Assembly (NCBI RefSeq): GCF_020630935.1 | Contig: NZ_JAHDIG010000040.1 | Location: 1 to 42,432, forward strand | DNA length: 42,432 bases | Source: Bernardetia sp. | Lineage (GTDB): Bacteria > Bacteroidota > Bacteroidia > Cytophagales > Bernardetiaceae | Direction of reading: 5' to 3' | Shown here: positions 19,959-24,623 of the stretch, piece after piece | Position numbering within the stretch: position 1 is the first letter of the stretch | How the letters are laid out: the number at the start of each line of letters is the position of its first letter | The notes under the pieces: generated by a model | What the model was told of the DNA's origin: nothing | Database searches by the model: none | The model's input: only the letters and a program-made list of their open reading frames with translations | Translations under genes and position numbers: made by a program

Positions 19959-20702
19959 TCACATAATATCTAAAGGGCTTCTGATTTTATTCTTGCTGCC
20001 TTTGGTAATATGCGTGTAAATCTGGGTAGTTTTAATTGAGTTATGTCCCAAAAATTCTTGAATAAAACGTATATCTGTACCATTCTCTAGCAAATGTGTA
20101 GCAAAGCTATGCCTAAGTGTGTGTACAGTAGCTTCTTGTTTGATATTAGCTTTTTTGAGGGCTTTCTTAAATATTTTCTGAATGCTTGTCGTAGAGTATT
20201 GTCCTCCATTTTGACCTTCAAATAACCACTCTTTAGGCTTGTAAGCCTTATAATATTCTCGTAGTAAAACTAAAAACTGCTCAGACAACATCACTTCTCT
20301 ATCTTTGTAGCCTTTTGCTCCTTTTATCCTGATTATCATTCTTTTTGAATCAATATCATTTATTTTGAGTTTAGTAATTTCGCTTATTCTCAAACCAGCA
20401 CTATAAATACCTGTAAGAATAGTTCTATGTTTTAGATTCGTAGGACTACTTATCAAACGTACAACATCTTCTTTTGATAATACATTGGGTAGTTTGTGTT
20501 CCTGTCTATTAGGATATAGGTAGTCAATTTGTAAATCTTTCTTATACATTTCTTTATAAAAAAGCTTGATTGCTCCTACAGTTTGCTTTTGGGTAGAAAA
20601 GGATATTTTCTCTTCTCTTATTTTTTGATAGAGATATTCTTGTACTTCTTTTTGTGTTATTTTTTCAATAGGTTTCTCAAATTGGCTAAAAAACTTCTCC
20701 AA
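19959..20702 (-). CDS. 5'-truncated tyrosine recombinase (integron-integrase-like position)
   Basis: A 247-codon open frame beginning at a TTG, interrupted upstream by an in-frame TAG at the edge of an inserted element. The catalytic domain is complete: Arg in SAGLRISE, the Lys hairpin RIKGAKGYKDRE, HTLRHSFATHLL, LGHNSIKTTQIYTH with the nucleophile Tyr. The N-terminal SAM-like domain starts abruptly at EKFFSQFEKPIEKI. Its missing first ~27 residues are found on the far side of the element (20853-20936). The family resembles XerC/D and lacks the extra domain typical of IntI. It reads away from the cassette-like genes at 21.1-23.7 kb, as intI does in an integron. It is probably inactive unless TTG initiation yields a working protein. 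Confidence 0.8.
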   Translation of the reverse strand: MEKFFSQFEKPIEKITQKEVQEYLYQKIREEKISFSTQKQTVGAIKLFYKEMYKKDLQIDYLYPNRQEHKLPNVLSKEDVVRLISSPTNLKHRTILTGIYSAGLRISEITKLKINDIDSKRMIIRIKGAKGYKDREVMLSEQFLVLLREYYKAYKPKEWLFEGQNGGQYSTTSIQKIFKKALKKANIKQEATVHTLRHSFATHLLENGTDIRFIQEFLGHNSIKTTQIYTHITKGSKNKIRSPLDIM

Positions 20703-20709
20703 TACAGAC

Positions 20710-20852
20710 TAGGGTAAACGCACGAAACTTTTTATACTAGCTCACTTAGCTTTAAATAAACTTTACTTGTCAGAGTAATATAAATAATCAAAGTAAAAAA
20801 GAGCTTCTATTTGATTTAAATGGCTATACTTTTTTTTCGTGCGTTTACCCTA
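20710..20852. mobile_element. 143-bp MITE inserted in the recombinase gene
   Basis: The ends are perfect 18-bp inverted repeats: TAGGGTAAACGCACGAAA at 20710-20727 and its complement at 20835-20852. The 9-bp sequence AATACAGAC flanks both sides (20701-20709 and 20853-20861) as a target-site duplication (10 bp if the shared T is counted). The interior is AT-rich with no open frame. Removing the element and one duplicate rejoins the two recombinase pieces. The transposase that moved it is not in the window. Confidence 0.92.
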
Positions 20853-20936
20853 AATACAGACTGATATGTTTTTTTGAGTGCTGTAAGCATAGCGTTTGAT
20901 TTTTAATAGTTGTACAAATTTTTCTATCTCTTCCAT
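20853..20936 (-). pseudogene. detached 5' end of the tyrosine recombinase
   Basis: From the ATG at 20936 the minus strand reads MEEIEKFVQLLKIKRYAYST, then continues QK-TYQSV-LEKFFS into the main frame once the MITE is removed. One extra base in the run of seven T at 20869-20875 puts the two parts out of frame; with six T the fusion is perfect. The intact ancestor would have been about 275 residues, normal for this recombinase family. A sequencing error in the homopolymer is possible. Confidence 0.8.
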
Positions 20937-21065
20937 AATAACTCTTTTTTTAGATGGATATATGTAACTGTAAATAAAGGTACGTAATAACGGCTAATTT
21001 GGTTTGTTATGTAAACCTTTCTTGTTAAAATTATGTGGATTGTGTAGTATTGAGTTTATATAAAC
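20937..21065 (+). other. attI-like region between recombinase and first cassette
   Basis: A non-coding segment upstream of the divergent recombinase. It ends at the core GTTGTGTGCA (21066-21075), where the first cassette begins. Unlike the attC-like site at 22708-22840 it shows no long inverted repeat, as is also true of attI sites in integrons. This assignment is inference from position. Confidence 0.45.
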
Positions 21066-21127
21066 GTTGTGTGCAATTTGAACCGACCACTTCCCTATTA
21101 AAATTTCCCTAAAAATTTAAAATAAAT

Positions 21128-21172
21128 GTAACCAGTTACAATAATATTTTATACATTTGCGTAACCAGTTAC
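21128..21172 (+). promoter_or_regulatory. marR promoter flanked by two identical operators
   Basis: The palindromic 12-mer GTAACCAGTTAC occurs at 21128-21139 and again at 21161-21172, 33 bp apart (three helical turns, so on the same face). Between them lies TACATTTG (21152-21159), a -7 box of the TAnnTTTG type. One operator covers the -33 region and the other lies just after the -7 box. This layout suggests that the MarR-family product represses its own operon. Confidence 0.75.
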
Positions 21173-21185
21173 AAATATTTAGGAA

Positions 21186-21665
21186 ATGGACTTTTTACAA
21201 CAGATAGGTTTTGCAGGATTGAACAGTAGAATAAAACGTTTAAGCGATGAACTTTTGTACAGTACAAAAGACTACTATAAAAACGCAGGGCTTGACATTG
21301 AACCCAATTGGCATCTGATTTTTCTGTTATTGGAAAAACACAAATCATTGACGATTACAGAAATATCACAGGAGTTAAGAATGTCGCATCCTGCTTGCGT
21401 GAAAATCATCAACAAGATGAAGAAAAAGGGTTATATCGACACTAAAAAGGACGAAAATGACTCACGAAAACAACTTTTGGAGCTTTCCGACAAAGCCAAA
21501 AATAAACTTCCCGAATTTCACAAGCATTGGGATGCTTGTATAAAAACAACCGAAGAACTTATTGAACAAAGTCCAAATTTTATGCAAGAATTGACCGAAT
21601 TTGAAAACTTGGTAGCTGACAAGAATTATATGGAAAGAACTTTAAAAAACTTTAATGAATTATGA
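21186..21665 (+). CDS. MarR-family transcriptional regulator
   Basis: A 159-residue winged-helix protein. The DNA-binding part is at about 50-100: LTITEISQELRMSHPACVKIINKMKKKGYI, then the wing DTKKDENDSRKQLLELSDKA. Flanking helices would make the dimer interface. It has no Cys pair of the redox-sensing OhrR type. It begins 13 bp after the second operator and its stop overlaps the next start (ATGA), as does the following pair, so it heads a three-gene operon. It forms the first part of cassette 1. Confidence 0.9.
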   Translation: MDFLQQIGFAGLNSRIKRLSDELLYSTKDYYKNAGLDIEPNWHLIFLLLEKHKSLTITEISQELRMSHPACVKIINKMKKKGYIDTKKDENDSRKQLLELSDKAKNKLPEFHKHWDACIKTTEELIEQSPNFMQELTEFENLVADKNYMERTLKNFNEL

Positions 21666-21904
21666 CTTTATTGACCGAAATTTTAGGGTATTTGGCAATT
21701 GCCACAGGCTTTTTTGCCATCACAAAAAAAGAAATGGGTGCTTTTCGTTTATGGCATCTAATTTCAAGTTTTTTCTACATCATTTACGGATTTCTATTGC
21801 AATCAAGTCCGTTAATTATTGCAGGTATAATTTTCTGTATCATACACCTTTATCATTTAAGAAAACTGAAAATGGACACTAAAAGCAAAACACAAGCATT
21901 ATGA
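21662..21904 (+). CDS. small YgjV-like membrane protein
   Basis: An 80-residue protein with three hydrophobic segments (about 4-20, 31-49 and 50-66): LLTEILGYLAIATGFFAI, then a short loop KKEMGAFRLW, then LISSFFYIIYGFLL and IIAGIIFCIIHLYHL. The arrangement is like one half of the YgjV family of inner-membrane proteins, whose function is not established. It overlaps the genes on both sides by 4 bp (ATGA), so it is translated in step with marR and the dapB-like gene. Confidence 0.65.
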   Translation: MTLLTEILGYLAIATGFFAITKKEMGAFRLWHLISSFFYIIYGFLLQSSPLIIAGIIFCIIHLYHLRKLKMDTKSKTQAL

Positions 21905-22701
21905 TAAAAGTATTTATAGCAGGCGGAACAGGTTGGGCAGGTTCTGCATTGGGCAAAGGCGTTTTCAATAGCCAAAATATGGAACTTGTTGGAGCAATGT
22001 CAAGAAAGCACAAAGGACAAAACTTGGCTGAAATTCTTGATTTGGGTTCGGCTAATATTCCTATTTACGACAACATAGAAACGGCTCTGAATGAAACCGA
22101 CTTTGATGTTCTTGTAGAATATACAAAACCAAATATTGCCAAAACAAACATTATATCGGCACTCAAAAAAGGAAAAAAAGTTGTTATTGGAACTTCAGGT
22201 CTGACTGAAACAGATTATACCGAAATTGAGAAAATAGCCAATGAAAATAATACTTCGGTTTTGGCAGTTGGCAATTTTGCGATAACGGTTGTACTACTTC
22301 AAAAGTTTTCGGAAATGGCGGCAAAGTATATTCCCAATTTTGAAATTATCGATTATACCCACGAAGATAAAATTGATGCACCAAGCGGAACAGCAAGGGA
22401 ATTGGCTTACCGACTTTCAAAAGTCCAAAAACCGAACAAATTCGTAACCGAAGATGAACTGATTGGAGAAAAATCAAGTCGTGGTGCAAATCTAAATGAG
22501 GTTCAAGTCCATTCGGTCAGACTTCCAGGACACGTTATTTCCATAGAAACCATCTTCGGACTTAAAGACGAAAAACTATCCATTAGACACGATTCGGGAG
22601 CGAGTGCAGAACCGTATGTAAAAGGCGGACTTTTGGCCATCGAAAAAGTTGGAACATTTAAAGGATTAAAAAGAGGTCTTGATAGTGTAATGGAATTTTA
22701 A
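21901..22701 (+). CDS. dapB: DapB-like dihydrodipicolinate reductase homologue
   Basis: A 266-residue protein of the 4-hydroxy-tetrahydrodipicolinate reductase fold, an NAD(P)H-dependent enzyme of lysine and diaminopimelate synthesis. The N-terminal nucleotide-binding loop is GGTGWAGSALG (8-18). The substrate loop DAPSGTA follows at 159-165, and Lys 157 corresponds to the catalytic Lys 163 of E. coli. However, the E. coli motif HHRHK reads THEDK here, so the proposed proton donor His 159 is replaced by Thr 153. The gene is last in a marR operon inside a mobile cassette, without other lysine genes. A paralogue with altered chemistry is therefore as likely as a true DapB. Confidence 0.8.
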   Translation: MIKVFIAGGTGWAGSALGKGVFNSQNMELVGAMSRKHKGQNLAEILDLGSANIPIYDNIETALNETDFDVLVEYTKPNIAKTNIISALKKGKKVVIGTSGLTETDYTEIEKIANENNTSVLAVGNFAITVVLLQKFSEMAAKYIPNFEIIDYTHEDKIDAPSGTARELAYRLSKVQKPNKFVTEDELIGEKSSRGANLNEVQVHSVRLPGHVISIETIFGLKDEKLSIRHDSGASAEPYVKGGLLAIEKVGTFKGLKRGLDSVMEF

Positions 22702-22707
22702 AAAAAC

Positions 22708-22840
22708 TGCACACAACAACGTATATAAAAAATAGCGGTTTAAGTGCTTAAATCAAAGTGTTTTCGATAAATTTATCGTCAGTACCAAACCGAAAAGTCC
22801 GTGAGTAAAATCCGCTACTTTTCATATACAAGACCGTTGT
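22708..22840 (+). other. attC-like recombination site between cassettes 1 and 2
   Basis: A 133-bp imperfect inverted repeat. The outer boxes are ACAAC (22713-22717) and GTTGT (22836-22840). The inner arms are 18 bp, 22721-22738 (GTATATAAAAAATAGCGG) and 22812-22829 (CCGCTACTTTTCATATAC), pairing at 16 of 18 positions, with unequal spacers (3 and 6 nt). The loop holds two smaller perfect palindromes, TTTAAGTGCTTAAA (22739-22752) and CGATAAATTTATCG (22765-22778), and CGGTTT/AAACCG arms. Its left end TGCACACAAC is the exact complement of the start of cassette 1 (21066-21075). This is the rule for integron attC sites. Confidence 0.75.
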
Positions 22841-22847
22841 AAAACAT

Positions 22848-23735
22848 TTGAGAGAAACATTGAAACATATAATTTTAATAATGGGAATACTATCTTTTTT
22901 CGGAGCAAATAGTCAGAACAACAAAAAGGAAAATTTTGAAAATCTGACTTCTGAATTAAAAGAACAGTTTAGAAAGGAACTTCAAAGAGATTCGGAAAAG
23001 GAATTTAACCCAGAATTTATCCGAACCACAAATTTGGAAAACGAAATCATAAATAAATATGGTTTTGACGGAATCAAACTTGTTTTTGAATCAAGAAATA
23101 GTTCAAACTTTCACGAACTCGGAGAATTACCAGAAGACTGTCCTTGGAAAAACTTAAATGATAAAACAATTGCGGAATTCATAACCGAAAACTTTAAACC
23201 AATTTCTAAGAAAATTCCAAATTTGATATCTTCATTAAAAGAGCGTTGTAAATTCATTTTCGCAGAGAAAAAAGAAAACACTTGGCATTTACATTACTTG
23301 CTGAATATGAAGCTTTATGATGATAGAGATTATTTCAAAATTTATATAGGAGGAGCACCACTCTTAAATGCAGAACCAAATAAAAATTTAAAAACCTTTA
23401 ATTGGAACGTTCCTAATGACTTGAAAACTTTCTATAAAATACATAACGGATTTGGAGAAATATATGACGCTTATTTTGTTATGGCTAATGACGATATAAA
23501 AGTAATGGCAGAAATGATGAATCCAATTTGTAAAGAACAAAATGTACAACCCGAAGGTTATTCTTTTAATGACTTACTTGAGTTCTATCCAGATGGAGCT
23601 GGAAATGCCCAATGCTTTTATAAAAATAATGGAAATTCGACTGTAGATTGGGACCACGAAGTTTGGGAAATTTCTGGAGAAATCGGATTTTTTGAGTTTA
23701 TTAACGAACGAATGTCTGAAATAGACGAGGAATAA
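22848..23735 (+). CDS. exported SUKH (SMI1/KNR4) domain protein, cassette 2
   Basis: A 295-residue frame opening with TTG at 22848. A second TTG at 22860 gives MKHIILIMGILSFFGANSQ, an ideal signal peptide, and may be the true start. The middle part is Lys/Glu rich. The C-terminal ~120 residues look like a SUKH domain: VPNDLKTFYKIHNGFGEI, then the long loop and TVDWDHEVWEISGEIGFFEF with the conserved W and D/E. SUKH proteins are frequent immunity proteins against nuclease and other toxins, though usually cytoplasmic. It is the only gene of its cassette, with its start within ~10-25 bp of the cassette boundary, as is typical of integron cassettes. Confidence 0.7.
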   Translation: MRETLKHIILIMGILSFFGANSQNNKKENFENLTSELKEQFRKELQRDSEKEFNPEFIRTTNLENEIINKYGFDGIKLVFESRNSSNFHELGELPEDCPWKNLNDKTIAEFITENFKPISKKIPNLISSLKERCKFIFAEKKENTWHLHYLLNMKLYDDRDYFKIYIGGAPLLNAEPNKNLKTFNWNVPNDLKTFYKIHNGFGEIYDAYFVMANDDIKVMAEMMNPICKEQNVQPEGYSFNDLLEFYPDGAGNAQCFYKNNGNSTVDWDHEVWEISGEIGFFEFINERMSEIDEE

Positions 23736-23736
23736 A

Positions 23737-23770
23737 AAATGTTTTACAACAATGGCTATAAGTAATTGCT
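23737..23770 (+). other. left half of a second attC-like site
   Basis: AAATGTTTTACAAC (23737-23750) is the exact 14-bp complement of the beginning of cassette 2 (22836-22849). It is followed by AATGGCTATAAGTAATTGC, which resembles the left arm of the first site (spaced ACAACAA, TATAA, AAT and GC blocks). The matching right arm is not found; the sequence runs into a dispersed repeat instead, so the array seems to be cut off here. Confidence 0.6.
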
Positions 23771-23796
23771 TCTTCTCGCCTACTTCTGAAAATCCT

Positions 23797-24000
23797 CCTG
23801 CTCCATCTCGGCTGTTAAAAAACAAATAAAAAAAATAGGCTCTAGCTTGGCTCTGCCGAGTTAGGGCTATGTATTCGGCTTCCAGCCGTGGTTTTTGTAT
23901 TTGTTTTGTCCAAAAATTTCAATATTTGTAGCTATATTTAGAACTGCAAAATACAGTAAATACATATTACTCACTCGGCACAGCCGAGCGAGAGCAGGCA
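23797..24000. repeat. dispersed intergenic repeat with imperfect inverted arms
   Basis: CCTGCTCCATCTCGGCTG (23797-23814) is a reverse copy of the motif at 282-381. From about 23838 to 24000 a larger imperfect inverted repeat follows. Its left arm contains TTGGCTCTGCCGAGTTAGG and its right arm contains CTCACTCGGCACAGCCGAGC; stretches of it match 161-183 in inverted orientation. No gene lies between 23736 and 24033. Confidence 0.65.
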
Positions 24001-24396: not shown

Positions 24397-24623
24397 ATGT
24401 AACAAAACTAGACATAGAAGCAATTATTACTGAGCAAATGATTCAAATCCCTGCTCCATCTCGGCTACTAAAAAATGAAGAAAAAAACGGCTTCGAAAAC
24501 TATGGTAAAACCAAGCCTATCCTTTAGAAAAATAGTTGAAATTTATTCCGTTTCTATCGTATAGTGTTTTGTTTTTTACAGACACTATCCCACGAAGTCT
24601 TTACTAAGTTTTTTTATTAGTTC
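24397..24623. repeat. intergenic stretch with a copy of the CTGCTCCATCTCGGCT repeat
   Basis: No gene is seen. CCCTGCTCCATCTCGGCT at 24449-24466 is a third clear copy of the dispersed motif, in the same orientation as 23797-23814. The two copies thus bracket the DUF4180 gene. Confidence 0.6.

Follow-up and report, generated by a model that had tools for sequence, protein, structure and literature searches.

A probable integron-like cassette system of Bacteroidota with a recombinase that lacks the IntI-specific segment

The locus in Bernardetia

The stretch of DNA analysed here (the window; 42,432 nucleotides of Bernardetia sp., assembly GCF_020630935.1, contig NZ_JAHDIG010000040.1) contains a minus-strand tyrosine recombinase gene that reads away from two plus-strand gene units, which resemble integron cassettes (Table 1). 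We consider it highly probable that this locus belongs to an integron-like system of Bacteroidota, in which a recombinase that groups with IntI, and nevertheless is devoid of the IntI segment, recombines an attI-like site with attC-like cassette sites. The first-pass annotation of the window had assigned GTT cores to the starts of both units and exact reverse complements of these starts to their ends, and both assignments are correct: GTTGTGTGCA at 21066 is the exact reverse complement of 22708-22717 (10 bp), and GTTGTAAAACATTT at 22836 is that of 23737-23750 (14 bp). The site between the units, which is 118 bases long, indeed forms a long hairpin whose spacers are unequal (3 and 6 bases), and the bottom strand, whose folding had been suggested as a check, performs better against shuffles (z -2.24) than the top strand (z -1.05). 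The visible part of the second site ends at about 23771, and its right half is not seen.

The 247-residue open reading frame (ORF) of the recombinase contains the catalytic motifs GLR, KGYKDR, HTLRH and LGH..Y. With NCBIfam profiles, it scores 208.5 bits as XerA-like and 197.3 bits as integron integrase, both under the cut-off. The gene is interrupted by a miniature inverted-repeat transposable element (MITE), of which the genome contains three further identical copies (four in all), two at 99% and one at 68% identity. Its target duplication comprises 9 bp, AATACAGAC, with one copy at 20701-20709. As the gene is split, any recombinase activity at this locus would have to come in trans, and the window copy is probably a small, decayed member of a widespread integron-like Bacteroidota system. 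Just behind the array, a DUF4180 gene is flanked by a 38-base direct repeat of 87% identity (23797-23834 and 24450-24487).

Table 1. Features of the recombinase-cassette locus in the window
Feature	Position	Strand	Remarks
Tyrosine recombinase, main part	19959..20709	-	Rest of SAM-like domain and whole catalytic domain; Pfam Phage_integrase 3.1e-43
MITE, 143 bp, 18-bp terminal inverted repeats	20710..20852	.	Inserted in recombinase gene
Separated start of recombinase gene (MEEIEKFVQLLKIKRYAYSTQKNIS..)	20853..20937	-	Translation with stops left in
Putative attI-like entry point	21020..21068	+	Between recombinase and first GTT core; suggested by position only
Cassette 1	21066..22835	+	MarR-type regulator, YgjV-like small protein, DapB-like reductase (Pfam), then site; own-end complement 10 bp
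Recombination site 1	22706..22847	+	R'' 22708-22717, L'' from 22721, loop, L', core GTT at 22836
Cassette 2	22836..23750	+	SMI1/KNR4 (SUKH-1) family gene, Pfam PF09346 2.7e-6; own-end complement 14 bp
Site 2, left half (R'' and L'')	23737..23771 (end approximate)	+	L'' letters same as in full site G000:C50:34226-34367

A family of hairpin sites

Sites of this kind were collected with a detector that demands a GTT start, its reverse complement over at least 8 bases downstream, and a hairpin up to the next GTT. It was run on 63 sources, namely 62 recombinase loci and the window, where it gave 167 hits with a site length of 100-130 bases versus 24 in the reversed sequences, units being countable in both orientations. 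The 82 oriented sites from 32 sources were reduced to 70 from 30 sources by a length and spacer filter, and most sites measure 115-121 bases between the cores. From 67 of these 70 sites, the covariance model R1 was built, which has 22 pairs, and 18 of these show covariation, with at least one sequence that has changed on both sides and still pairs. The window site between the two units, which is itself one of the 67 training sites, scores 99.3 bits (E 3.4e-20), and there are three good R1 matches in the window's own genome. A search with a left-end pattern, which found a single place in that genome, was dropped in favour of the structure model.

The genome scans with R1 covered Bacteroidota, and the E-values of R1 are rough. 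R1 sites occur in 221 of 295 genomes of the window's class (10 candidates scored per genome) and in 90 of 148 genomes of the phylum (21 scored), and the same site adjoins different genes in many of these genomes, as a mobile cassette site had been expected to do. Twelve of 15 few-contig genomes have R1 matches, up to 74 in G295, 55 in G215 and 29 in G194, and none were found in G290, G082 and G057. Long site arrays adjoin recombinases in G194, G215, G295 (two arrays) and G298. The longest ORF is directed towards the unit's own site in 105 of 113 units. Rfam gave no match at the sites of five sources, its one match overall being a cobalamin riboswitch, and a scan of viral sequences gave one partial match. 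Two arrays of G295 (L128-L132) contain repeated cassettes of about 355 bases that start with GTTAGGCACAATTT and have site variants of about 71 and about 180 bases.

Association of sites with recombinases

Relatives of the window recombinase are found at 1e-40 in 151 of the 295 class genomes; from an earlier scan with a single recombinase protein, which gave three loci, only L003 was used. Sites are carried by 40 of 61 recombinase loci. In 39 of these 40, the nearest site is oriented away from the recombinase, and in 34 it is at most 3 kb away; it is on the 3' side of the recombinase in 34 loci and on the 5' side in six, the latter being the arrangement of the window. In 17 of 30 loci, the first GTT lies 49-151 bp from the recombinase match. 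At the level of genomes, sites accompany the recombinase in 144 of 151 cases, as compared to 77 of the 144 genomes that have no recombinase match (recombinase only, 7; neither, 67; odds ratio 17.9, p 5e-18, kinship among genomes not being allowed for). The recombinase family is therefore associated with such arrays, in agreement with what the first reading of the window had assumed.

Complementary cassette ends and strand asymmetry

As the detector demands complementarity of at least 8 bases, the 70 detector units cannot serve to test end complementarity. An unbiased test was done with 178 R1 sites from eight arrays, 172 of which have both cores, yielding 154 units between neighbours that are defined by R1 matches only. 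In 106 of the 154 units, the own ends are complementary over at least 9 bases, and the complementarity seen in the window thus recurs elsewhere; non-own ends within the same array reach at least 8 bases in 3.9%. Position 11 is an A in 153 of 154 units and is paired in 2%.

The stems also distinguish the strands. Among the mismatches at stem positions 6-14, wobble pairs of the bottom strand outnumber those of the top strand by 105 to 3, whereas at positions 5 and 21 the bias is reversed and favours the top strand (27 each), which results in 142 versus 81 over 24 positions. In the form that the site adopts in the cassette circle, the bottom strand is more stable than the top strand in 63 of 70 sites; for the linear form, this holds for 55 of 70. 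Of the two forms, that of the circle is the more stable one in 69 of 70 sites.

Cassettes shared between genomes and plasmids

Among 573 detected units (both orientations), 42 matches cover at least 70% of the unit in another genome, reciprocal pairs included, and many of these are between G295 and G298, which belong to one genus. A 1029-bp unit with a gene of the streptomycin adenylyltransferase family (Pfam) is 99.1% identical in G040 and G349, which belong to different classes; identity extends from the G of GTT to about four bases before the next GTT, and the flanks are unrelated, without common 10-mers. Another unit, with an ORF that we take to be ErmF-like, shows 99.7% identity between G081 and G215 along about 908 bases, beginning at the GTT, and its site end differs between the two.

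A blast of two sites against plasmids found four and three records, all of Bacteroidota genera. The first 19.8 kb of the Riemerella anatipestifer plasmid NZ_CP073240 contain 12 R1 sites on one strand, nine of which directly follow annotated genes, namely aph(3'), a phosphotransferase gene, estT, tet(X), blaOXA, an HTH/RelE pair, lnu(I), tet(X) and aadS. The ends are complementary over 9-10 bases in nine of 11 units; one unit had 3 bases, and the start of one was not located. For the aph(3') unit, flanks of 28 bases upstream and 139 bases downstream of the gene are predicted. According to the relevant section of PMC13148043, aph(3')-IVb became inserted in transformants without flanking homology, together with flanks of 27 and 140 bp that show an attC-like fold. 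The predicted and the published ends hence differ by one base at each side and have the same sum. That both genes are the same rests on the 262-residue length and on the naming, in that section, of the plasmid-borne copy of strain RCAD0416. Neither a recombinase nor an array is named in that section, where the mechanism is said not to be fully elucidated.

An Acinetobacter plasmid carries, directly before tet(X3), a recombinase with 50% identity to that of the window, and the tet(X3) unit starts with GTTATGTGCCATTT, the same 14 bases as in both tet(X) units of the Riemerella plasmid. This arrangement is that of the xerD-tet(X3) modules of Acinetobacter, and xerD also stands beside tet(X14) in Empedobacter stercoris (PMC7494873, PMC7473080). 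In the parts of these papers considered here, the modules are described as containing an xerD of unknown role, and whether XerD moves tet(X) is said to be of interest to test (PMC7473080). In the Acinetobacter tet(X3) region, there is no R1 match, and by eye there appears to be only the left half of a site behind tet(X3). On an Arenibacter plasmid, one weaker R1 match (40 bits) lies beside a recombinase. Relatives of the recombinase are also frequent on plasmids of Sinorhizobium, Acinetobacter, Rhizobium and Bradyrhizobium.

Comparison with IntI integrons and Xer recombinases

IntI loci served as yardstick for classical integrons, 20 from the phylum plus one from G142. IntI is present in 46 of 148 phylum genomes, among which only G142 is listed in the window's class, and G142 has no R1 match. 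In the IntI loci, R1 scores do not exceed 27 bits, with the exception of L157, which holds R1 sites and was excluded from the classical set. The genome of L157, G308, contains a recombinase of the array type as well, at a distance of about 140 kb from that locus.

One difference concerns the recombinase. The distance between box I and box II is 89-96 residues in 91 of the 97 ORFs from array loci, as compared to 131 residues in 30 of the 33 from IntI loci (the distance was not measurable in 16 of 113 and 4 of 37, respectively, and overlapping loci count some genes twice). The remaining six array-locus spacings of 194 are taken, as a group, to be motif artefacts. By this spacing, the array recombinases do not have the IntI-specific segment of about 40 residues, and the annotation had rightly described the window recombinase as devoid of the extra domain.

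The second difference concerns the sites. Bulges in the left arm occur in 5 of 70 new sites (3 of 168 in the R1 set) versus 57 of 66 classical sites, the latter being those of 114 that passed a score and orientation filter; with other gap costs, the numbers are 8 and 4 of 70, 21 of 168 and 1 of 167 for the new sites, and 59 of 66 and 50 of 58 for the classical ones, the first number of each pair being that for a cheaper gap. Most of the classical bulges occur at a depth of 6-7 and 13-14 bases in the stem, in accordance with the spacing of extrahelical bases in the part of PMC2727003 consulted. Position 11 is an A in 70 of 70 new units and in 37 of 118 classical units. The classical core consensus is GTTRRRY. 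While all 70 new units have a GTTR core, only four fit GTTRRRY, in line with the misfit noted for the window, and since this holds for no more than 27 of 118 classical units, it is a weak criterion.

Other properties are shared. The cassettes of both systems are arranged head to tail with GTT/AAC cores, the recombinase is at the head, most units face one direction, and the sites are hairpins with unequal spacers, also in the IntI arrays. Complementary ends of at least 9 bases are present in 100 of 155 chained units of IntI arrays (7 bases in 48), and PMC2727003, as far as considered, gives 9-11 bases for integrons. Complementarity of a cassette's own ends was therefore rejected as a hallmark of the new system.

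In a quick tree, the array recombinases form one group (support 97, starred) and IntI another (99, starred), and both together are placed against XerA and XerC/XerD with a support of 90, XerA being represented by two rows only. This tree is a second one, from which L036_-2175 and L046_+5243 (second recombinases of their loci) and L003 (broken frame) were dropped, and in which L179 and L181 (labelled xer) and L147 (labelled intI) were regrouped by their placement in the first tree. The idea that an unrelated recombinase had turned into an integron analogue is not supported by this grouping with IntI. XerA, XerC and XerD share the fold family, the catalytic motifs and the box spacing with the array recombinases, but they belong to a separate tree group, and the new system has long hairpin sites and cassettes. 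Ten genomes were searched for XerC/XerD; G000, G295 and G327 have no match at 1e-40 besides the array recombinases, and the other seven differ from them in this respect.

Proposed mechanism and alternatives

We propose that the tyrosine recombinase joins an attI-like site beside its own gene with folded attC-like sites at the cassette ends. In the cassette circle, the bottom strand of the site would fold into a long hairpin, as the ends of a given cassette are complementary to each other over 9-10 bases, followed by a fixed mismatch at position 11 and then by more pairs. Strand exchange would take place inside the GTT core, so that the stretch entering the array would run from one GTT to the following one. 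As extrahelical bases are mostly absent, the choice of the strand cannot depend on them, and it may instead depend on the unequal spacers and on the wobble pairs that favour the bottom strand. We infer that the array recombinase itself performs the reaction, that the single bottom strand is used, and that the site beside the recombinase gene has attI function.

What alternatives exist for such a system? The array could be a classical integron with drifted IntI and attC. The layout and the GTT core are shared, and IntI arrays within the phylum have a similar spacer asymmetry and complementary own ends, all of which would be compatible with this, as would the insertion of IntI, which is not fully conserved in the integron-like subgroup of tyrosine recombinases described in PMC8138268; recombinases like those found here may already belong to that subgroup, and the portion of the paper considered here mentions no arrays or sites for insertion-free members. 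Nevertheless, drift is improbable, as not one of the 97 array-locus ORFs shows the IntI-type spacing if the six values of 194 are artefacts, as the two kinds of recombinases separate in the tree, and as the sites differ in extrahelical bases, in the A at position 11 and in their R1 scores, L157 excepted.

Two further explanations are even less probable than drift. If the sites were intergenic repeats behind genes, such as terminators or REP-like or MITE-like elements, and the genes moved by homologous recombination only, this would account for hairpins behind genes, some of which are similar even in the loop, and for the many genomes that have sites without a recombinase match. It would not account for an end complementarity that is specific for the unit, for common cassettes that are identical from the GTT core on and lie in unrelated flanks, for sites that point away from the recombinase, or for the published insertion without flanking homology (PMC13148043, in the section cited above). 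The recombinase could also be a chromosome-dimer (Xer) or pdif-type enzyme that is found beside arrays by chance; its XerA and IntI profile scores are similar, and XerC/XerD matches besides array recombinases are lacking at 1e-40 in the window's genome and in G295. This is hardly reconcilable with a tree position apart from XerC/XerD, with several copies per genome that have sites near each (G040, G295), with the split gene in the window's genome, and with sites that are 118-base hairpins.

Several observations weigh against the proposed integron-like system. The link between enzyme and site is deduced from sequence. Twenty-one of 61 recombinase loci have no site, 14 of which have less than 1.5 kb of contig on the 3' side and 7 of which have more, and at the 1e-40 threshold, sites occur in 77 of 144 genomes without a recombinase match and are absent from 7 of 151 with a match. 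A long end match is absent from 48 of 154 units. The two other good sites of the window's genome, one of which (L134) is at a contig end, yielded no unit with complementary ends. L157 (G308:C1:1200800-1220700), where four strong R1 sites and a true IntI are only a few kb apart, stands out as an exception. The support of 90 for the grouping with IntI is below the starred level, and in the first tree, which kept the three long or broken rows, the array recombinases were not one group. Finally, recombinase relatives are present on 297 plasmid records, many of them of Proteobacteria, of which two regions were inspected.

Implications

Integrons are defined by an IntI with an additional segment and by attC sites with two or three extrahelical bases on the L'' arm, as stated in the parts of PMC2727003 and PMC9668308 considered here. 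The system described here is of integron type in its logic and layout, has no such segment and mostly lacks the extrahelical bases, and it would therefore be a variant of integrons that differs in these two features. In the open-access literature (titles and abstract openings; preprints and most subscription papers are outside this scope), no recombinase without the IntI segment is described together with attC-like arrays in Bacteroidota. Bacteroidota are listed among the integron-bearing phyla in the section of PMC8618304 considered, and for Bacteroidetes proper, the corresponding part of PMC9024848 (IntegronFinder 2.0) names one complete integron, that of Salinibacter ruber, which contrasts with R1 sites in 221 of 295 class genomes.

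With even chances, in our estimation, the system constitutes a second integron class in Bacteroidota that is sister to the IntI class, has neither the IntI segment nor extrahelical bases, may keep the state before the segment was acquired, and is the hidden vehicle of Flavobacteria cassette clusters with tet(X), aph(3')-IVb, erm(F)-like and other genes. It suggests a testable answer to two questions posed in the sections considered, namely how Riemerella acquires resistance genes without homology (PMC13148043) and whether tet(X) is moved by xerD (PMC7473080). The IntI segment and the extrahelical bases have been held necessary for the recognition of a folded single-strand site (PMC2727003, in the part cited). 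A related system without both, if true, would mean that they are one solution and not the sole one, and would open a route to studying the origins of integrons.

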